Assembly: GCF_003259895.1 (NCBI RefSeq)
Contig: NZ_QLME01000027.1
Location: 1-44,779, forward strand
Direction of reading: 5' to 3'
Origin: Halanaerobium saccharolyticum
GTDB lineage: Bacteria; Bacillota; Halanaerobiia; Halanaerobiales; Halanaerobiaceae
DNA length: 44,779 bases
Shown here piece by piece: positions 1 through 11,352 of the stretch; the first letter of the stretch is position 1, and every line of letters begins with the position of its first letter. The notes under the pieces are model-generated. The model made no database searches. It worked only from the letters and a program-made list of their open reading frames with translations, and was not told the origin of the DNA. The translations under genes and the position numbers were made by a program.

Positions 1-100
1 GAATATTTTGATTCTGATAACGATAAATAATAGATCAATTTGAAATACTAAGAATCAGGAAGAATAGGACCGGACAAATGTCCTAAATGTAAATATTGAA

Positions 101-121
101 CTTGAATTCGGCAAGTAAAAA
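101..121 (+). repeat. Left inverted repeat of the IS1380-family element
   Basis: These 21 bp match the reverse complement of 1800-1820 with no mismatch. The repeat is preceded by TTGAA, which recurs directly after the other end. It is the end distal to the transposase start. Confidence 0.9.
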
Positions 122-302: not shown

Positions 303-1659
303 TTAATTTAGCACCACCTTCTTTCTAAAATCTGTTAATGCTTTTCTAAGATGTATAATTGTTTTTTCCAGCAGTTTATTTGGGGCAAAGCGGATGTGTT
401 TGTACCAGCCGCTGCCGCAGATATTACCTGCTATTTTGTAAAAGATCCTTCTTAGAGTTGTTATCTCATGATGATGCATATTTTCAGGTAAGAAAGTTCT
501 TTTAAACCAATTATTAAGGTTAAAAGCAATCATTTTAATCAGCAAATACAGCTCATTACATTTGCGATTAATCTGAGTGTTCTGGTCAAAAGCAAAGCCT
601 TCTTTCAGCTCGTCAATCTTGTTTTCAATATTGCAGCGTTGGTTGTAGTCATTGAATATTTCTTCAGCTGTTAGATAGTCTACATTAGTGACGATAGCCT
701 GATACTCATAGGTAAATTCTTCAAAGAGCATCTGTCCATTTTTGTTATATTTGGGAAGAGACTTTTTGATTAAGACAAATCTGCGTTCTCTATCCCAGCT
801 TTTTAGTGGTACTCTAATTTCAGTAACACTAAAAGTGTTATCGATTTTGACCCAGGGATACTGATCTGGATTTTCATTGACATAATCAATAATCTTTTTG
901 ATACCATTTTGCATTTTAGCTTTAATGACATATTCGATACCGTTATCTTCACAATATCTGAAGTTTTTCTGATCAAAGAAACCTCTATCTGCTCTGATTC
1001 TTTTTAGATACCAGCTTTCAGGTAGAGTCTCAATACAGGATAAGGAATTCATGGTTGCTGTGATGAGTACCTTCTTCCAGTGTCAGGTTAAGTAGTTTAT
1101 CAGTTTTAGATATGATACCCACTTTTTCTTTAAAGGATGGTCTGCCTTTATATCTTGGATTATATCCATTTGCAGAACCTTCCTGATTACCAAAAACGGT
1201 ACAGACTGTATCGTCAAAGTCGAGTATCACTTCTTTAGCAGGCTGTGTTTTAGCAATTGTTTCGAGAAGATTTTTATTAAGTTCTCTCAGTTCATTTACA
1301 CTTTCTTCAGGCATAGCTTTCAGAAGATCACGACATACTTTTTCACTGGGAACATTAAAATCTTTAATCTTTAGATATCCTGCATCTTCTCTAAGATTTT
1401 CATAATGAGAAAAGCGGGAATACCCCAGAATAGATGCATCAACCATAAAATCCAAGATATCATTGGGTTGATAAGTTGCATTAGGTGCTTTTTGATAGCT
1501 AATATTATCCGAAATTAAAGATTTAAAATCTATACTGGATTTAGCAGCTTCCAGGTAAGAAAAAGCTGGACAACTAGACACTGTCTCACTATCAAATTTA
1601 GCTGGAATATTTAATTTGTTAAAACTATTTATTTTAGTGTTGTTTTGTGGTAAACTCAT
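303..1659 (-). pseudogene. IS1380-family DDE transposase, frameshifted
   Basis: Two consecutive minus-strand reading frames make up one transposase of about 450 aa. The N-terminal part starts at ATG 1659, chosen because AAGGAG (1669-1675 region) lies just upstream; an in-frame start at 1707 has no such site. This part carries the first catalytic Asp region (VILDFDDTVCTVFGNQEG) and ends at 1030 after LEEGTHHSNH. The C-terminal part continues in another frame from about 1052 to 303, with IRADRGFFD (second Asp) and NIENKIDELKEGFAF (Glu). The frame change falls near 1045-1055 and equals one lost or gained base. IS1380 transposases are normally one uninterrupted frame, so this is read as a disabling mutation or a sequencing error, not a programmed frameshift. 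Confidence 0.85.
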
Positions 1660-1799
1660 ATCAGAATCTCCTTTTTGGTTTTGGTATGGTTTTTGTGTTA
1701 AAAACATTTTACCACAAACCTTAAGGAGATTCTATTTTTTTATTCAAAAAAATTTGAACTAGATTTACTGTTTAAAGACTATCATAACTGGATTCGGTA

Positions 1800-2283: not shown

Positions 2284-3939
2284 TTACCACCAGGCTTCAA
2301 ATTGAACACCATAAACGGTTCCACTATCCTCATCAAATTCATCTGCAAAAACAGAATCAGTTTTTGCATCATCTTTGTACTCATCACCAAAAGCATGAGT
2401 TACAAAAATTCTTATCTCAGGACGGCTCCAGAAATTACTTTCTAATTTAATTGTAGGAGCAATAGTTAACTTAGTTACCTTATAATCTCCTTGGTCATCA
2501 ATATCAGTATAATCATAACCAATATCATATTGCATTGCAAAATTATCAGTTAAGTAATTTACAAAACGGGCACCAGCAGTAATATTAGTTTTATCATTTT
2601 TACCGTCATAATCTTGATCTAATTGATAGACAAATTGCGGCATAACATCCCAATTTTTATTAATCGAAGTTAAACCATAAGTTAATAATCTGACAGAGCT
2701 TTGTTCTTCATTTTTATCTAAACCATATGAAGAACCTACATTAGATCCTAAATCATCTCCATACTGCAGAGCTGCTGTCATGTTTCCATTTGTAAAACCA
2801 TAAAAGTCAGAACGGTTATAAACAGCTGCGGCTTGAATACCAGTTCTATCCTTTGTATTCACTTCGTTTTCATCTCCATTTGACCAAGAAGGAGTTAATT
2901 CAAATTCCCAATAACCACCTAAACCTTCAATATCTTTTAGTCTTATATCGATATTTTGTTGTGACTTTTCCCCAACGTTTTCAAATACAGTACCTTCAGA
3001 CTCTCCAATAAAAGCTAAATCCATAGAAAAATCACTAAATTTAATTCCCTTAACTCCAGCACCATATCCACTCATATCTCGCCAGTAAAAATCTGTAATA
3101 TGAATGTCGTTTCTACCGTAGAAACGACCACCAGCCCAAAAATTAGCTTCAGGTGCAAAATCAAAACCTCCACCTTCTATAAAAGCTTCTCTAACTGCGA
3201 TTCCATCTTCCCATATACCATAAGTTCCATTTAAATCATTAGAATGGGCAAAAGTAAATTGACCTTTCATCCAAGCCCCAGAATTAGTAGTCATCTTATT
3301 AGAAACTGTTTGTTCAAAATAAGTATCCATTTCATTTCCCAGTCTAAAATCGCTAGGAAGTCTCTGATCTGTCGAACCTCCATTGGCATTCATCACATAA
3401 CCAGAACGGGCATATCCGTGCCACTCAAAACCTTCCCAACGACTTTGCTTTTCCTCAACAGTATCTAATCTTGTATTCTGCTTTGCATCACTTTCTTTTA
3501 AAACAGAAATATCAGAACCAATTACTTCGAGTTCACTTTCAAATTCAGCTGTCAGAGACTTAATAATATTTTTTACTTCTTCAGCCTCAGCATCACTTAT
3601 GTTATTATCATCAGAATTTCTCTTATTTAATATTTCCTTAACTATAACTGTAACATCTTCCGCTTCACCTTCACTTAAATTTTGATTATTCTTATCTATT
3701 TCATCAGTAATCTCTTTTAAAACTCTATTCACTATTACAGCCATTTCATAACGATTCATAGAATTTCCGCCCTTAAATTGACCATCAGAATATCCCTCAA
3801 TAATTCCACTGGCAATCAAATTGTTAATAGCATCATATGCCCAGTGATCAGAAGGCACATCAGAAAGAGTTGAAGCACTTATTGATAAAGAAAATGTCAA
3901 AAACATTAGAACAGCTAAAATTGTTATAGTTTTTTTCAT
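2284..3939 (-). CDS. SLH-domain outer-membrane carbohydrate porin, LamB-like
   Basis: About 551 aa. It starts with a signal peptide (MKKTITILAVLMFLTFSLS), then one SLH domain at about residues 23-70 (SDVPSDHWAYDAINNLIASG, MNRYEMAVIVNRVL), an acidic, probably helical linker, and a beta-barrel. The barrel has LamB/maltoporin signatures: WHGYARSGYVMN near its start, then FWAGGRFYGRNDIHITDFYW followed by GYGAGV. The protein ends in an aromatic residue (VQFEAWW), as outer-membrane barrels do. SLH porins are known from diderm Firmicutes, where the SLH domain ties the outer membrane to the cell wall. A TTG start at 3960 is possible, but AAAGGGG would then lie inside the gene, so ATG 3939 is preferred. 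A LacI-type operator lies upstream and an oligosaccharide importer lies beyond two IS remnants, so the inferred role is oligosaccharide entry into the periplasm. Confidence 0.88.
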   Translation of the reverse strand: MKKTITILAVLMFLTFSLSISASTLSDVPSDHWAYDAINNLIASGIIEGYSDGQFKGGNSMNRYEMAVIVNRVLKEITDEIDKNNQNLSEGEAEDVTVIVKEILNKRNSDDNNISDAEAEEVKNIIKSLTAEFESELEVIGSDISVLKESDAKQNTRLDTVEEKQSRWEGFEWHGYARSGYVMNANGGSTDQRLPSDFRLGNEMDTYFEQTVSNKMTTNSGAWMKGQFTFAHSNDLNGTYGIWEDGIAVREAFIEGGGFDFAPEANFWAGGRFYGRNDIHITDFYWRDMSGYGAGVKGIKFSDFSMDLAFIGESEGTVFENVGEKSQQNIDIRLKDIEGLGGYWEFELTPSWSNGDENEVNTKDRTGIQAAAVYNRSDFYGFTNGNMTAALQYGDDLGSNVGSSYGLDKNEEQSSVRLLTYGLTSINKNWDVMPQFVYQLDQDYDGKNDKTNITAGARFVNYLTDNFAMQYDIGYDYTDIDDQGDYKVTKLTIAPTIKLESNFWSRPEIRIFVTHAFGDEYKDDAKTDSVFADEFDEDSGTVYGVQFEAWW

Positions 3940-4026: not shown

Positions 4027-4037
4027 TTTATTTTTGT

Positions 4038-4057
4038 TTGCACAATCGTTTGCACAA
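4038..4057 (-). promoter_or_regulatory. LacI-family operator before the porin gene
   Basis: The plus strand reads TTGCACAATCGTTTGCACAA. It differs at one position in 20 from the site at 11237-11256 before the GH31 gene. The core is an imperfect palindrome centred on CG, usual for LacI-family sites, and TTTGCACAA also occurs as a direct repeat at 12-bp spacing. A possible minus-strand promoter (TTGAGA at 4089-4094, 17-bp spacer, TATTTT) would put the operator just past the -10 box, where a repressor blocks initiation. No LacI-type regulator gene lies in the window. Confidence 0.7.
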
Positions 4058-4252
4058 ATTTTAAAAAAATAATTATTATTTAATATGATCTCAACACAAA
4101 AAGCATATAATATTTTCCAATTCATATAAATATAAATAATAAGTAAAGTCTTTTAGAACAATAATAAAAGCTATTAAAAGTCCTATAATCGCTGATATAA
4201 CAGGATTATATGTATAATTAGTATAACAAATAATACTAATTGGGGTGCTTTT

Positions 4253-5205
4253 GTGTTTTCTAAAAATGAATTTCAACAACTGTCTTTTAATGATTCTGTC
4301 TTAGATATGCCAGAATATCTTAAGAAAATATTTGAAGATAGCTAGACTTATCCTTTTCAGCAGGTGATATTCCCTTCAATTGACGAGGATAGATTTGAAG
4401 TACTGTATTCTGATAAACTATCCAGACCTAATTCTCCAGTTAATGTAATCATTGGAGCTTTAATTCTAAAAGAAATCTTTGGTTTTTCTGATGCAGAGCT
4501 TTTAGCTTCTATCTACTTTTATGATAGATTTCAGTATGCTCTTTGTCTGACCAGTGAAGAAAAACCTCCAGTTTCAATTAATATTTTTCCGAATTTCAGA
4601 AAAAGAGTTTATGCTTATGAAAAAGAAACTGCTTGAGATTTAATTAAAGAAGAAGTAAAATCACTTTCTGAACTTATCGCTCAAACTTTAAAGATTGATA
4701 ACGAAAAAGTTAGAGTTGATTCCTTTATGGTTGCTTCTTCCTGCAAAAATCTGTCAAAAATAGAACTGGTATATACTGTTAATACTAATTTAATCAAAAA
4801 GCTCAATCAACTAGATAAAGCTGCAATACCTGAAAGCAGTCTTAGCTATTTAGATAAAGATCATAAAAATGAGATCATCTACAAAACCAGAGATAAAGAA
4901 AGTGAATCAAAACTTGATTTTCTCTTAAAACAATCACAGATGCTCTACAGAACAGCTTTAGAAAGTGCTTCTAAAATATCAGAAACTGAAGAATTTAAAT
5001 TTCTAAAAAGAATGCTCGGAGAGACTGATCATGATAATTTTGATGACCTTGATCCAGATAATATTGAAGCTAAAGATGCAAGAAAATTGGATTCAGATAT
5101 TCTTCAAAACCCCAGTGATCCTGATGCAACATATCGTTTTAAGTATAATAGTAATGTTGTATACTGCTAATGTTGTTGAAGTATTTGATGCTGAAAAAGA
5201 TGTCT
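4253..5205 (+). pseudogene. IS1182-family transposase remnant
   Basis: One plus-strand frame from GTG 4253 reads as an IS1182-type transposase: MFSKNEFQQLSF at the start, then SRPNSPVNVIIGALILKEIF, YFYDRFQYALCL, and later KVRVDSFMVASSC and the PDATYR region. It is broken by in-frame stops near 4343 (TAG) and at 4634-4636 (TGA). A frameshift near 5150 then leads into YTANVVEVFDAEKD. All following family domains are missing, because the sequence runs directly into a second IS remnant read on the other strand. The element is certainly dead. The boundary at about 5205 is a judgement from where homology-like sequence ends. Confidence 0.75.
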
Positions 5206-5444
5206 GGACTGCTTGTAAATTATATTTATTGCTGACATCAATGCTTAAACTACCGAGAGAAGATACAGATTCAAGCTGACCATAGAGTAAAATTTGAAAT
5301 AACTTTTTAGTTGTAAGTTTTTTGGTATATTTATCCAGTTCAAGTTCAGTAACAATTTTTGAAAATAAATTAAAATTTATAAAACAAGTAGTTGATTAAA
5401 TGTGATTTCTGTGATATTTTGTCCATAGTATTTGCTCCTTATTT

Positions 5445-5581: not shown

Positions 5582-6457
5582 TCATCCTTTTACTCCACCC
5601 AGGGTTAAACCTCCCACTAAGAAACGAGAAAGTAAGAGAAAAATTGCCATAACTGGCAGCATAATTAATACTGAAGCTGCGGCAAATTGTGCCCAGGCAG
5701 TATTAAACTGACCTGCTAAATTAGTTAAACCAACTGGTAAAGTATATAAACTATTGTCTGTCATTACAACCCTGGCCACCATATATTCATTCCAGGCTGT
5801 CATAAAAGAAAATAGAGCTGTAATTACCAGTGCTGGTTTGGCAAGGGGAAGTATTATCATATAAAAAGCCTGAAATTGATTTAAACCATCAACTAATGCT
5901 GCTTCTTCCAGACTTTCGGGAATGGTATCATAATAACCTTTCATCTGCCAGACACAGAGGGGTAGGGCGGTAGAAGAATACATAATTATCAAACCAATAT
6001 GAGCCTTAGCCATTCCTAAAAAGGGAACCACTATCGTCTGCTGTGTTAAGCCAAATTGAGATAATAATATATACATCGGTAGCAAAAGCATTGTAGCAGG
6101 GAACATCTGAGTTAATAAAAAGAATGTTAAACCAGATTTACGACCTGGAAATCTTTTGCGAGAAAAGACATAACCAGCTGTTGAGGCCAGTGAAACACCA
6201 ATAATTACAGTAAAAAAAGTAACTAAAAGTGAATTTCTTAACCAGATTAAAAATCCCTTATCAAAAATTAAGGTTCTATATGCCTCAAAAGTTGCATTAT
6301 CAGGAATAATGGCAAGACTCGTTGAATGTAATGAGTCACCAGGTCTTAAGGATGTACCAAAAACTCTTAATGCCGGGTAAACAGCAATAACTACAGAAAT
6401 TAATAAAATTATATGAAAAATAATCTTCTTCCATTTACTATCTTTTTTTACTGACAT
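5582..6457 (-). CDS. Sugar ABC transporter permease, MalG type
   Basis: 291 aa inner-membrane permease with six predicted transmembrane segments. The cytoplasmic EAA loop that docks the ATPase is clear: EEAALVDGLNQFQAFYMIIL, followed by PLAKP, at about residues 185-210. The C-terminus ends GGLTLGGVKG, typical of MalG-like proteins (CUT1 family). It starts 14 nt after the MalF stop with AAAGGAGG upstream, so the two are co-translated partners. It forms the importer with the preceding MalF-type permease and the binding protein. No ATPase gene follows. The gene ends only 18 bp from an IS end, so its original downstream sequence and terminator appear displaced. Confidence 0.92.
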   Translation of the reverse strand: MSVKKDSKWKKIIFHIILLISVVIAVYPALRVFGTSLRPGDSLHSTSLAIIPDNATFEAYRTLIFDKGFLIWLRNSLLVTFFTVIIGVSLASTAGYVFSRKRFPGRKSGLTFFLLTQMFPATMLLLPMYILLSQFGLTQQTIVVPFLGMAKAHIGLIIMYSSTALPLCVWQMKGYYDTIPESLEEAALVDGLNQFQAFYMIILPLAKPALVITALFSFMTAWNEYMVARVVMTDNSLYTLPVGLTNLAGQFNTAWAQFAAASVLIMLPVMAIFLLLSRFLVGGLTLGGVKG

Positions 6458-6471
6458 TTAAGAACCTCCTT

Positions 6472-7413
6472 TTAGTCTGCATTAATATAATCAATAAAGC
6501 TAATTGCCCAAACAAGTAAAATCACAAAAATAATTAAAGAAAATGCTGCCGCATAACCATAACGATAAAATTCAAAAGCGGAACGGTAAACATGAGTAAC
6601 TAAAATATCTATTTTATTTGTAAGAGTGTTTTGAGTTAATAAGTAAATTACTCTTAAATTATTAAATGTCCAGACAACTCCCAGTATAACTGCAGGTAAC
6701 ATAACAGGTTTTAATAATGGTAAGGTTATATGTTTAATCTGCTGCCAGTTGCTTGCACCATCGATTTCGGCGGCCTCATAAAAATTAGGATCAATACTCT
6801 GCAGACCCCCGAGAGCAATCATCATCATAAAGGGAATTCCAAGCCAGATATTAACAATTAAGGCAGCGCTAAATCCTGTATTTGCCTGACTCAACCAGGC
6901 AATTCCTGGTATACCTATTTTTCTCAGCAGTAAATTAACCGCTCCATAACGGTAATTAAACATTCCTTTCCAGACTAAAACCACAATATACTGAGGTATT
7001 GCCCAGGGGATAACCAGTAAAGTTCTATAGATTGATTTAAACATTAAATCTCGATCAAGTATAATAGCATAAAATATTCCAAAACTTACATGGGCTACAA
7101 CATTAATAACTGTCCAGGCAACTGTTCTCAATAGAATAATCCAGAACGAACTTTCAGTTATTATTTGAATAAAATTATCAATCCCAATATAAGTGAGTTG
7201 ATCACTTTGTATAAACTGCCTCATATTGTACATATTCAGATTTGAAAATGCTAATCTAAAATTATAAAAAAATGGATAAATAACAACAAATAATACAACT
7301 ATAAAGGCCGGCAGCAGCATCAAATAAGAAAATTTATGTTCTCTCCAGAAGTCTTTAAGTGAAAAACTTGCTAATGATGATGTAAACCTCAAGTTTTGAT
7401 CAGGTTGACTCAT
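6472..7413 (-). CDS. Sugar ABC transporter permease, MalF type
   Basis: 313 aa inner-membrane permease with a short cytoplasmic N-terminus (to about residue 28) and six predicted transmembrane segments. The EAA loop reads EAAEIDGASNWQQIKHITLP at about residues 212-232. It lacks the extra N-terminal segments and large periplasmic loop of E. coli MalF and so resembles the shorter Firmicute CUT1 permeases. AGGAGGTAATTA precedes ATG 7413. A terminator-like hairpin separates it from malE, so it is probably made in smaller amounts than the binding protein. Substrate is inferred as an alpha-linked gluco-oligosaccharide from the GH31 gene. Confidence 0.92.
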   Translation of the reverse strand: MSQPDQNLRFTSSLASFSLKDFWREHKFSYLMLLPAFIVVLFVVIYPFFYNFRLAFSNLNMYNMRQFIQSDQLTYIGIDNFIQIITESSFWIILLRTVAWTVINVVAHVSFGIFYAIILDRDLMFKSIYRTLLVIPWAIPQYIVVLVWKGMFNYRYGAVNLLLRKIGIPGIAWLSQANTGFSAALIVNIWLGIPFMMMIALGGLQSIDPNFYEAAEIDGASNWQQIKHITLPLLKPVMLPAVILGVVWTFNNLRVIYLLTQNTLTNKIDILVTHVYRSAFEFYRYGYAAAFSLIIFVILLVWAISFIDYINAD

Positions 7414-7479: not shown

Positions 7480-8754
7480 TTACTGCATACTTTTAATATT
7501 TTCTTCAGCTTCCTGCTGCATTTGTTCAGCAGCAGCTTCAGGTGCTAAATCATCACTCATTACACTCTGTAAAGCTGGTCTAACAGCATCCCAGATACCT
7601 CTCATTTCTGGAACTACAGGCATGGCTTTACCATTTCTCAGCTGTTCAGCAGACCCTTTCATTATTGGGTCATTTTGAATTTGAGGTAAACCATAAGCCT
7701 GGTCATTGCTTGGAAGGAAATTATTTTCAACATATAATTCCTGGGCAGCAGTACTTGTCATGAAATCAATAAAGTTAATTGCTGCAATTTGCTTTTGCTC
7801 AGCTAAACCTGACATAACAATAAATCCCTTTCCACTTGTCATTGGCTGACCATATTTACCAGTTTTTTCGAATCTAGGAATTGGAGCAACTCCTAAATCA
7901 ACATTTTTCGCACTTTTATAACCTTCAATTGACCAGTCTCCATTAATAATAAAGGCAACATTTCCTTCTTTAAATAAGCTGTCCATCAGGTCATAATCAG
8001 ATTCTTTAGGTACAATTTCATGCTCAAATTTAAGTGAATGAACAAACTCTAAAGAATCAACTGTTGCTTCAGTATTTAAAGTTGGATTATATTCTTCATC
8101 AAATACCCAACCACCAAAACCACCGTGGAATGCAGCCCACCAGAATGGTTCATTCAAATTATAAGCTAAACCATACTTATCAACCAGGCCATCACCATCT
8201 TCATCAATAGTATTTGCTTTAGCTACTTCAATTAATTCAGACCATGTTTCTGGAGCTTGATCTACAATGTTTTTATTGTACATTAACATTAAGTGATTAC
8301 CCATAGTTACAGGCACACCATAAGTTTCTCCACGTAAGCTCATACCAGGAAGAGCTGCATCAATATACTTATCTTTCATATCCTGACTCATTAAGTCATC
8401 TAATGGTTGAGCAAGTCCCATAATGGAGAATGGTCCCATATGGTCAAAAGGACTTAATACTACATCTGGACCCTGACCACCCATGTATGCAGTTTGAGTA
8501 TTCTGTCTTAAATCCTCAACACTGCCGGCGTGTGTTCTTTTTACGGTAACATTAGGAAATTTGTTTTCGAATTTTTTGATTAGTGGATCTAAAATTTCAG
8601 TATCGATTCTTTCCTCGTCAGCTTCCCATAACTTAAGTGTTACTTTTTCTGTAAGCTCTTTTTTATCGAGATCCTGTTGAGCAGCAGCACCTACAGAAAA
8701 GATTAGAGATAAGGCTAAAACTAAAATTGAAACAGTAAAAATTGACTTTCTCAT
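7480..8754 (-). CDS. Sugar-binding protein of the ABC importer, MalE type
   Basis: 424 aa extracytoplasmic solute-binding protein of the MalE/CUT1 type. The signal peptide (MRKSIFTVSILVLALSLIFS, then VGAAAQQ) has no lipobox cysteine, so the product should be a free periplasmic protein and not a lipoprotein. That is unusual for Firmicutes but fits a cell with an outer membrane. The mature part has family features such as VTLKLWEADEER, GPDVVLSPFDHMG and VAFIINGDWSIEGYK. AGGAGGAATTATT precedes ATG 8754. It follows the GH31 gene and precedes the permeases in one operon. Confidence 0.92.
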   Translation of the reverse strand: MRKSIFTVSILVLALSLIFSVGAAAQQDLDKKELTEKVTLKLWEADEERIDTEILDPLIKKFENKFPNVTVKRTHAGSVEDLRQNTQTAYMGGQGPDVVLSPFDHMGPFSIMGLAQPLDDLMSQDMKDKYIDAALPGMSLRGETYGVPVTMGNHLMLMYNKNIVDQAPETWSELIEVAKANTIDEDGDGLVDKYGLAYNLNEPFWWAAFHGGFGGWVFDEEYNPTLNTEATVDSLEFVHSLKFEHEIVPKESDYDLMDSLFKEGNVAFIINGDWSIEGYKSAKNVDLGVAPIPRFEKTGKYGQPMTSGKGFIVMSGLAEQKQIAAINFIDFMTSTAAQELYVENNFLPSNDQAYGLPQIQNDPIMKGSAEQLRNGKAMPVVPEMRGIWDAVRPALQSVMSDDLAPEAAAEQMQQEAEENIKSMQ

Positions 8755-8783: not shown

Positions 8784-11192
8784 TTAACTTAATTCAATGG
8801 TAATTTTATTTATAACAACTGGAACTTTAAATTCCAGTCTGTTATCAGAGTAATTAAACTCACTTAATTGATTACCATCAACATAGATATTTAGAGGATC
8901 CTTATTTAAATTATTGAAAATCATCTTATAATCTTTAAATTCCTGCTGATAGTTTTTTTCCTTCCTATCTATATTAAATATTATCTGATTATCAGTATAT
9001 TGATATTTAAATTCAGTAATGTTATAAACTCCATTTTCATAATTATAGGAAAGACCATCATCATCATAAAGTTCATAACTACCTAGATTATTTTCCTCAT
9101 TTAAGAAAACATTTAACTCCAGACATTCAATCTCCTTTTCTCCAATATAGTTTAACTTATCATTTAAGGGAATAATACTGCCTGCCTTAATAAAAATTGG
9201 CATTTTCTCCAGAGGAGCATCCACTATTAAATGTTCTTCTCCCTGATATACTTCTTTTGTCCAGAAATCAATCCACTTTCCTTCAGGTAAGTAAAGCATT
9301 CTCTTATCTTTATCAGGCTGATAAACTGGAGCCACCAGAACACTATCTCCAACCATGAATTGGTCTGAGAGATTCTGACATTGCCTGTCAGCAGGAAATT
9401 CCATAATTAAAGGCCTCATAAGCGGAATTCCTGTTTTGGAAGCCTGATAAAAGAGATTATATATATGTGTTATAAATTTATATCTTAATTCAATATATTT
9501 TTTAATAATCTTTTCAAATTTTTCTCCAAAGGACCAGGGTTCCTGAGAAACAGCTCTAACTTCACAGTGATTTCTAAAGAAAGGGACAAAAGCTCCCATC
9601 TGAGTCCAGCGGGTTAAAAGTTCACCATTACTGTTACCGGTAAAACCTCCAACATCGGTACCACAGAATGTAATACCTGACAGTCCCATATTCATCAGCA
9701 TCGGCATAGCAAGTTTAATATGATCCCAGAAACTCCGGTTATCTCCGGTCCAGACAGCAGAATAGCGCTGAATACCTGCAAAGCCAGCTCTGGTTAAAAC
9801 AAAAGGCCGCTCATTATCCAGACTTTCCTTTAAACCTTCAAAAGTTGCCTTATTTTCTAAAAATCCATATAAATTATGAAAACGGCGGTGGGTACCAGAA
9901 TCACCATCATTCTGATGCATCACCTCAACATCCATGGTATCAGATTTATTAAAAGCAGCCGGTTCATTCATATCATTCCAGATTCCTTTTACTCCAAGGT
10001 CTGTGTAATCTTTCTGCAGGCCGGCCCACCAGTCTCTTACCTTTGACTGAGTAAAATCTGGAAAAGCACAATTTCCTGGCCAAACTTTATCTATAAACAC
10101 TTTGCCATCAAGATATTTGCAGAAATAATCATTTTCCATACCCTGCTGATAAAGTTTATATTCGGGATCTTTTTTTACACCGGGATCAATAATTGTAACG
10201 GCTTTAACTCCATTTTCTTCCATCTTGGAAAACATTGCTTCAGGATCTGGAAAGCGATCTTCATCCCAGGTATAAATTTTATATTGATCCATATAATGAA
10301 TATCAAAATGAAAAGCATCACATGGAATTTCTTTATCCCTAAAAGTTTTTAACAGCTGCTCAACTTCAGCCTGGGGATAATAACTGTAGCGTGACTGATG
10401 ATAACCCAGTGACCATTTGGGTGGTAGAGGCATAGTACCAGTTATTTGAGAATATTTGCTGACTACTTCTTTTAATGAAGGACCATTAATAAAATAATAA
10501 TCCAGCTCTCCCCCTTCTGCCCAGAAGGAAAAATAGTCCTGACCTTCACTTCCCAGATCAAAAAAACTCTTATATGAATTATCAAAATAAATACCATAAC
10601 TATTTTTGGGATTAAAAGCTATTAAAAATGGTATTGATTGGTATAAGGGATCAGTATCACTGACATGAGGAAGAAAAGTATCATGATTCCACATCTCATA
10701 TATTCTACCCTTTTTATCAAGCCAGCCTGTTTTCTCTCCTAGACCATAAAATCTTTGACTCTGTTCAAATGATTTCCAGGCTCTAACTTTTTGTTTTTTC
10801 CAGCCCAGAGCATATTCATTGTGATCTTTATGAATTAATTTCCCCTGTTTATTAAATACTTCAAGCAGAAAATTTTCTTTCTTAAGCTTAAGAACTAAAT
10901 TATCTGTTTTAATAATTAATTCACTATCTTTTTCATTAAAAATAAAGTCATCATAAGTTAAATTATGTTCAATAACTGCCTCAGTACTTTTATAATTAAT
11001 TTTCTGATCTGAATGTGCCATAATAACTCTAAAAATATCAGCAGTTAAAAATCTGATTGCCAGACTGGCATGTTTAAAATTTAACCTAATCTCATTATTC
11101 TTTATTTCATAATTCAAAATACCACTTAATTTATGGTAATCACTACTGTTATCTCTGCTTTTACCCTGCAGTAAGGCTTCACTATTATCCAT
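8784..11192 (-). CDS. Alpha-glucosidase, glycoside hydrolase family 31
   Basis: About 802 aa. GH31 enzymes release alpha-linked sugars, mostly glucose, from non-reducing ends with retention of configuration. The nucleophile Asp lies in WNDMNEP (about D407) and the acid/base Asp in VWTGDNRSFW (about D484). The N-terminal beta-sandwich and C-terminal domain (FLNEENNLGSYELYDDDG) are present. There is no signal peptide, so it acts in the cytoplasm on imported oligosaccharides. The start is set at ATG 11192 because GAGAGGAGA precedes it; the longer frame to 11264 would run through the operator. It is the first gene of the GH31-malE-malF-malG operon, under the LacI-type site at 11237-11256. Whether it prefers maltose, isomaltose or another linkage cannot be told from sequence alone. 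Confidence 0.92.
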   Translation of the reverse strand: MDNSEALLQGKSRDNSSDYHKLSGILNYEIKNNEIRLNFKHASLAIRFLTADIFRVIMAHSDQKINYKSTEAVIEHNLTYDDFIFNEKDSELIIKTDNLVLKLKKENFLLEVFNKQGKLIHKDHNEYALGWKKQKVRAWKSFEQSQRFYGLGEKTGWLDKKGRIYEMWNHDTFLPHVSDTDPLYQSIPFLIAFNPKNSYGIYFDNSYKSFFDLGSEGQDYFSFWAEGGELDYYFINGPSLKEVVSKYSQITGTMPLPPKWSLGYHQSRYSYYPQAEVEQLLKTFRDKEIPCDAFHFDIHYMDQYKIYTWDEDRFPDPEAMFSKMEENGVKAVTIIDPGVKKDPEYKLYQQGMENDYFCKYLDGKVFIDKVWPGNCAFPDFTQSKVRDWWAGLQKDYTDLGVKGIWNDMNEPAAFNKSDTMDVEVMHQNDGDSGTHRRFHNLYGFLENKATFEGLKESLDNERPFVLTRAGFAGIQRYSAVWTGDNRSFWDHIKLAMPMLMNMGLSGITFCGTDVGGFTGNSNGELLTRWTQMGAFVPFFRNHCEVRAVSQEPWSFGEKFEKIIKKYIELRYKFITHIYNLFYQASKTGIPLMRPLIMEFPADRQCQNLSDQFMVGDSVLVAPVYQPDKDKRMLYLPEGKWIDFWTKEVYQGEEHLIVDAPLEKMPIFIKAGSIIPLNDKLNYIGEKEIECLELNVFLNEENNLGSYELYDDDGLSYNYENGVYNITEFKYQYTDNQIIFNIDRKEKNYQQEFKDYKMIFNNLNKDPLNIYVDGNQLSEFNYSDNRLEFKVPVVINKITIELS

Positions 11193-11236
11193 TTTACTAT
11201 CTCCTCTCAACCGAAAATCTTTGTTATATAAAATCA

Positions 11237-11256
11237 TTGCGCAATCGTTTGCACAA
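11237..11256 (-). promoter_or_regulatory. LacI-family operator before the GH31-ABC operon
   Basis: The plus strand reads TTGCGCAATCGTTTGCACAA, one mismatch from the porin site at 4038-4057. The core GCAATCGTTTGC is a near-perfect palindrome centred on CG, as for LacI-family repressors. It lies 45 bp upstream of the GH31 start codon, within the leader or promoter. A clear -35/-10 pair for this operon was not found. Confidence 0.72.
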
Positions 11257-11352
11257 ATTGGCAAAAAAATATTATTTCTGTTTCTTTCTTATTTATAGCT
11301 TAATACATTATTCTGACATTTGCAAGTCTTTTAAGAATTTTTTTCTGTTTTT

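Follow-up and report, generated by a model that had tools for sequence, protein, structure and literature searches.

A LamB-family porin with an OmpM-type SLH anchor, apparently co-regulated with a sugar importer, in Halanaerobium saccharolyticum

The stretch of DNA analysed here (the window, 44,779 nucleotides of Halanaerobium saccharolyticum, contig NZ_QLME01000027.1) carries on its minus strand an intact open reading frame for a 551-residue porin. Its coordinates (2284-3939), the motifs WHGYARSG and FWAGGRFYGRNDIHITDFYW and the C-terminal Trp-Trp, all given in the initial annotation, were confirmed when we read the frame. The gene and its surroundings comprise the following features:

303..1707, minus strand: IS element near the contig end, downstream of the porin, with its transposase in two ORFs (Pfam DDE_Tnp_1_4 on both)
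2284..3939, minus strand: SLH-stalk-LamB porin gene, 551-aa ORF, ATG at 3939, stop at 2284; Pfam LamB and SLH
2287..3435, minus strand: LamB barrel, residues 169-551, 18 model strands; Pfam, and ScrY/LamB fold match at Z 38-41
3076..3123, minus strand: constriction-loop stretch, residues 273-288, with R276, D283, Y285 and D288 corresponding in alignments to E. coli R109, D116, Y118 and D121
3436..3690, minus strand: helical, coiled-coil-like stalk, residues ~84-168, like native SLH porins to ~162; model helices 90-110 and 116-157
3739..3864, minus strand: SLH domain, residues 26-67, with HWAY (32-35) and NRYE (62-65) as in OmpM; Pfam and alignment with native SLH porins
4036..4058, minus strand: operator-like near-palindrome TTTGTGCAAACGATTGTGCAAAC, 97 bp upstream of the porin's ATG, one of only two genome sites at <=3 mismatches
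4250..5280, plus strand: broken transposase remnant between porin and malG, with ORFs 4364-4636 and 4727-5170 in broken frames; Pfam DUF772 in the first
5582..6457, minus strand: MalG-like permease; Pfam BPD_transp_1, best NCBIfam match MalG (E=2.8e-58, under cut-off)
6472..7413, minus strand: MalF-like permease; Pfam BPD_transp_1, best NCBIfam match MalF (E=3e-45, under cut-off)
7480..8754, minus strand: sugar-binding protein (MalE/GanS-like); Pfam SBP_bac_8 (E=2e-42), NCBIfam GanS 139 and MalE 133 bits, both under cut-off
8784..11192, minus strand: GH31 alpha-glucosidase (MalA-like) that heads the importer operon; Pfam GH31 (E=7e-128), NCBIfam alpha_gluc_MalA 572 bits, under the cut-off of 800
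11235..11257, minus strand: second operator copy, about 43 bp upstream of 11192, the probable ATG of GH31; in relatives the same site stands before or near the orthologous operon

The porin begins with a signal peptide and a single SLH domain; a coiled-coil stalk then leads to a full-length LamB barrel. The Pfam LamB profile (PF02264) matches residues 173-551 over its positions 1-378 of 378 (E=7.5e-87, 293 bits against a curated cut-off of 25.1 bits), and the single SLH domain is found with E=6.3e-11, which bears out the earlier description of a LamB-like porin with an N-terminal SLH domain. In a phmmer search against solved proteins the porin matches ScrY at 2.2e-32 and the maltoporins at about 1e-25, and its SLH part matches S-layer proteins and OmpM, the VpOmpM1 chain 8bys being matched by residues 2-75 at 3e-12. 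The NCBIfam maltoporin LamB model (NF006860) gives 193.9 bits, under its curated cut-off of 394. By profile, the protein is therefore a member of the Pfam LamB family that falls below the NCBI maltoporin subfamily cut-off, and a genome-wide search found it to be the sole LamB in the 3.31-Mb genome.

What kind of barrel does it form? An AlphaFold model built on 36 aligned LamB proteins has a mean pLDDT of 77.9, the barrel being mostly above 90 and the N-terminal third at about 45-75. We counted 18 barrel strands in this model, the number that the initial annotation had expected for LamB, and two short strands (277-279 and 284-288) occupy the place of the constriction loop. When only the barrel was used in a fold search, ScrY came first (Z 41), then the maltoporins (Z 38-39) and then Campylobacter MOMP (Z 21); Foldseek agrees that ScrY and LamB are nearest. 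The profile search against LamB, also proposed at the outset, likewise placed LamB and ScrY best, far above general porins. The two outcomes that the initial annotation had named as refuting, a 16-strand general-porin barrel and best matches to unspecific SLH porins only, are thus not supported: the model has 18 strands, and LamB and ScrY are the best profile and fold matches. One could still imagine an OmpM-like general porin and tether, resembling LamB in fold only and devoid of sugar specificity, since in Veillonella an anchor of this kind carries OmpM, a porin for general diffusion (PMC10628300). We regard this as very improbable, given the full-length LamB profile match, the 18 rather than 16 strands, the specific LamB constriction residues and a LamB/ScrY fold match twice as strong as that of any general porin; furthermore, a Pfam scan of an SLH porin of the same genome (on contig C9) gave no LamB match. 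By its barrel the window porin is not an OmpM, though it may tether like one.

For the channel itself we compared the porin with E. coli LamB, taking from the latter the residue numbers and roles of the constriction and of the slide (Y6, Y41, W74, F227, W358 and W420). R8, R33, E43, R82, R109, D116, Y118 and D121 of E. coli LamB are all kept in the alignment, as R178, R199, E209, R250, R276, D283, Y285 and D288. At positions 109, 118 and 121, where ScrY has D, D and F, the porin has the maltoporin residue throughout; its aligned constriction matches that of a maltoporin rather than that of a sucrose porin. The greasy slide anticipated in the initial annotation is recovered in part, by alignment and not from a sugar-bound structure: Y176, Y207, W504 and W550 correspond to Y6, Y41, W358 and W420, the place of W74 is taken in the alignment by Y240, W243 lying three residues off, so that either may stand for it, and the F227 position is an asparagine, N386, where ScrY has a serine. 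In the LamB proteins of three other Bacillota genomes (G449, G453 and G454), positions 118 and 121 are Arg and Glu instead of Tyr and Asp, which suggests a substrate other than that of the window porin.

Residues 2-162 of the porin share 47-48% identity with two further SLH porins that this genome encodes on contigs C9 and C6, and this anchor module is present in 37 of the 38 genomes of the order. The aligned likeness to the native porins stops near residue 166 and LamB starts at about 170; alignment and model thus show the join at the stalk-barrel border, at about residues 163-170. The motifs named in OmpM are W34, Y36, G58 and TRYE (PMC10628300), and the HWAY and NRYE of the porin align where OmpM has W34, Y36 and TRYE. 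SLH proteins of Halanaerobiales have been reported as likely OmpM homologues (PMC5007114). Judged by these alignments, the porin's N-terminus is an OmpM-type anchor module native to this genome. Moreover, the genome and its relatives carry Omp85, so that an outer membrane is likely present in the organism. The reading of the initial annotation, a sugar channel tied to the wall of a diderm Firmicute, is supported by sequence and model, and the SLH module is of the native OmpM kind; sugar transport and wall binding we infer.

How did this combination arise? A single genome among 38 of the order carries LamB, as do 5 of 59 in the class and 3 in a 398-genome sample of the phylum. SLH is present in one of the 36 LamB proteins scanned with Pfam, the window porin; neither the 59 class genomes nor the phylum sample held another SLH-LamB, and we found no description of such a protein in the open-access literature searched (subscription journals lay mostly outside the search). 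The combination is thus found nowhere else in the data searched. The four other LamB genomes of the class all belong to one family (f10), whose LamB proteins are of the CBM48-stalk-LamB kind and never carry SLH, one genome having in addition a short LamB with no N-terminal domain; in two further Bacillota (G386 and G252), CBM48/AMPK1_CBM stands ahead of LamB. The tree places the window barrel in a clade with the f10 barrels (support 96/98), within a wider set that holds G386, G252, ScrY, one Cetobacterium and one Vibrio protein, and barrel identity to G455a is 50%. A scan of contigs for close relatives with the porin alone gave no match; the alignment-based scan gave 172 LamB relatives, and among the best 80 of these 172 none is annotated as Bacillota. 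The single LamB genome among the 38 of the order was first read as uptake from outside the class, a reading overturned by the class-wide search and the tree, in which f10 is nearest. As far as the sequences tell, the likeliest origin of the gene is a LamB barrel of the class on which the resident OmpM stalk took the place of a CBM48 module, or was added where no N-terminal module had been. The identity of the stalk to its native counterparts indicates that the fusion event, or the divergence of the stalk, is not recent.

That the gene lies near a contig end, between IS sequences, and that LamB is missing from the other 37 genomes of the order could also be explained by an artefact of assembly or contamination, in which a foreign LamB gene was joined to the contig. 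We find this scarcely credible: the frame is single and open with no stops, the GC content at third codon positions is 0.19 across both halves and not foreign-looking, the N-terminus is of the order's own kind and the barrel of the class's kind, and the porin operator matches that of the importer operon on the same contig, in a genome that is 99.97% complete and 1.5% contaminated.

It is the operator that appears to tie the porin to the importer. The pattern TTTGTGCAAACGATTG[T/C]GCAA has exactly two sites at <=3 mismatches in 3.31 Mb, and the reversed control pattern has none in the same 3.31 Mb. This whole-genome count supports the link by operator to an ABC importer proposed in the initial annotation. 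The location calls for one qualification: the porin lies outside the ABC operon, with the broken transposase between it and malG. Across the genus, the operator and the MalE orthologue co-occur in the same 7 of 12 genomes. A LacI-family gene directly follows the orthologous operon in three relatives (G012, G014 and G016), one GH13 gene lies between in a fourth (G017), and in none of these four is there a porin at the orthologous operon. In the window genome the LacI orthologue is intact (91%) on contig C28, and upstream of it are encoded a GH13 protein and a CBM48-GH13 enzyme that seems to bear a signal peptide; when searched for the operator, the first 16 kb of C28 gave only background (best score 6.9 versus 32-35 for the two true sites). 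Given that relatives encode a LacI-family protein at the operon's end or close to it, and that its gene is intact in this genome, the regulator different from that of E. coli that had been suggested is probable, and a LacI-family protein probably regulates both porin and importer.

Which sugar would pass? Maltodextrin would be the substrate of the importer to judge by distant NCBIfam matches, the binding protein being about equal for GanS and MalE. An alternative is a channel specific for another glucan or oligosaccharide (sucrose, galactooligosaccharides or cyclodextrin), with the same architecture and tether. Consistent with it, the binding protein scores highest for GanS, which binds galactooligosaccharides, and MalE follows closely, ScrY, a sucrose channel, shares the wider clade of the barrel, the F227 position is non-aromatic, and arabinofuranosidase-like genes occur further along the window and in relatives. 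We nevertheless hold it to be unlikely, because the three positions that separate ScrY from LamB (109, 118 and 121) all carry the maltoporin residue, because the operator is common to the porin and a GH31 alpha-glucosidase, and because GH13 separates malG from lacI in one relative and, in this genome, GH13 genes precede lacI.

We therefore favor maltodextrin, and consider it likely that the gene encodes an inducible, maltodextrin-passing, chimeric outer-membrane porin that combines an OmpM-type anchor with an 18-strand LamB-type sugar channel. The barrel would sit in the outer membrane as a trimer and pass maltodextrins along the aromatic slide; behind the outer membrane the MalE-like protein would bind them, the MalF/G-like permeases would import them, and the GH31 enzyme would split the imported sugar. 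The three SLH domains of the trimer would grip the cell wall, each channel doubling as a tether, and the LacI-family protein would repress porin and importer jointly through the shared operator until sugar arrives. It is possible, though we are inclined to doubt it, that the amount of tether rises with the carbon source, coupling outer-membrane attachment to sugar supply, and that the LamB barrels of diderm Firmicutes freely exchange their N-terminal modules (wall anchor, starch binder or none).

With E. coli LamB the porin shares the 18-strand barrel over the whole profile, the eight constriction residues, four of the six slide aromatics by alignment and, as predicted here, an apparent regulation with a MalE/F/G-type importer. 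It differs by a barrel identity of 30% and by the added SLH domain and stalk; its operator suggests a LacI-family repressor, whereas E. coli regulates LamB by the activator MalT. ScrY (PDB 1a0s, 1a0t and 1oh2) has the same fold and belongs to the same wider clade; unlike the window porin, it gave no SLH match in the PDB search, and its constriction differs at 109, 118 and 121. A passage of PMC10542722 that cites Forst 1998 describes ScrY, too, as bearing an N-terminal coiled-coil extension ahead of the barrel.

The likeness to OmpM (Veillonella VpOmpM1, PDB 8bym and 8bys) lies in the plan of the protein, with a signal peptide, one SLH domain, a coiled-coil stalk and a C-terminal barrel, and in the SLH motifs W.Y and RYE, which stand at nearly the same residue numbers. 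OmpM tethers the outer membrane to the wall in Veillonella and Selenomonas (PMC10628300, PMC5007114). Its barrel, however, is a 16-strand general-diffusion one, and the window porin has an 18-strand LamB barrel apparently regulated with a sugar importer. The CBM48-stalk-LamB proteins of other Bacillota (G449, G453, G454, G455, G386 and G252) also have a domain ahead of the barrel and provide the nearest barrels, those from the four genomes in the window porin's class reaching 41-50% identity, but they carry a CBM48/AMPK1_CBM starch-binding module where the window porin carries SLH.

The OmpM general porins of Veillonella are reported to form the wall tether and to be, probably, its sole porins for nutrients (PMC10628300). 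The window gene sets a substrate-type channel on the OmpM anchor, under apparent sugar control. Tethering and nutrient uptake are said to be genetically linked in such bacteria, and this gene lets adjustment to diet be tested. Furthermore, LamB barrels with SLH, with CBM48 or with no N-terminal domain in one class present the outer-membrane proteins of this lineage as assembled from parts. The combination seen in the window porin suggests that anchors and channels change partners as outer-membrane pores evolve.

Several observations concern the surroundings of these genes. Inverted 27-bp repeats at window positions 95-121 and 1800-1826 (26 of 27 identical) bracket the contig-end IS element and are probably its terminal repeats. 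In a Blast comparison of C28 with the window the sole shared stretch is 54 bp; the orientation fits a joining of C27 to C28 across the IS repeat, as we infer from how the genes are ordered in relatives. In four genomes of one family (loci L147, L149, L150 and L151), the CBM48-stalk-LamB gene is followed by large, apparently lipoprotein-like genes whose signal ends in Gly-Cys. Another locus, L148 (9351-10646, in G455), encodes a 431-aa LamB lacking both CBM48 and SLH; a LacI gene and two MalF/G-like permeases lie nearby, and the same genome encodes a CBM48-LamB as well. Finally, the apparently secreted CBM48-GH13 enzyme of C28 (L123, 969-3308) has a CBM48 of the Pfam type AMPK1_CBM, as is found ahead of LamB in other members of the class.
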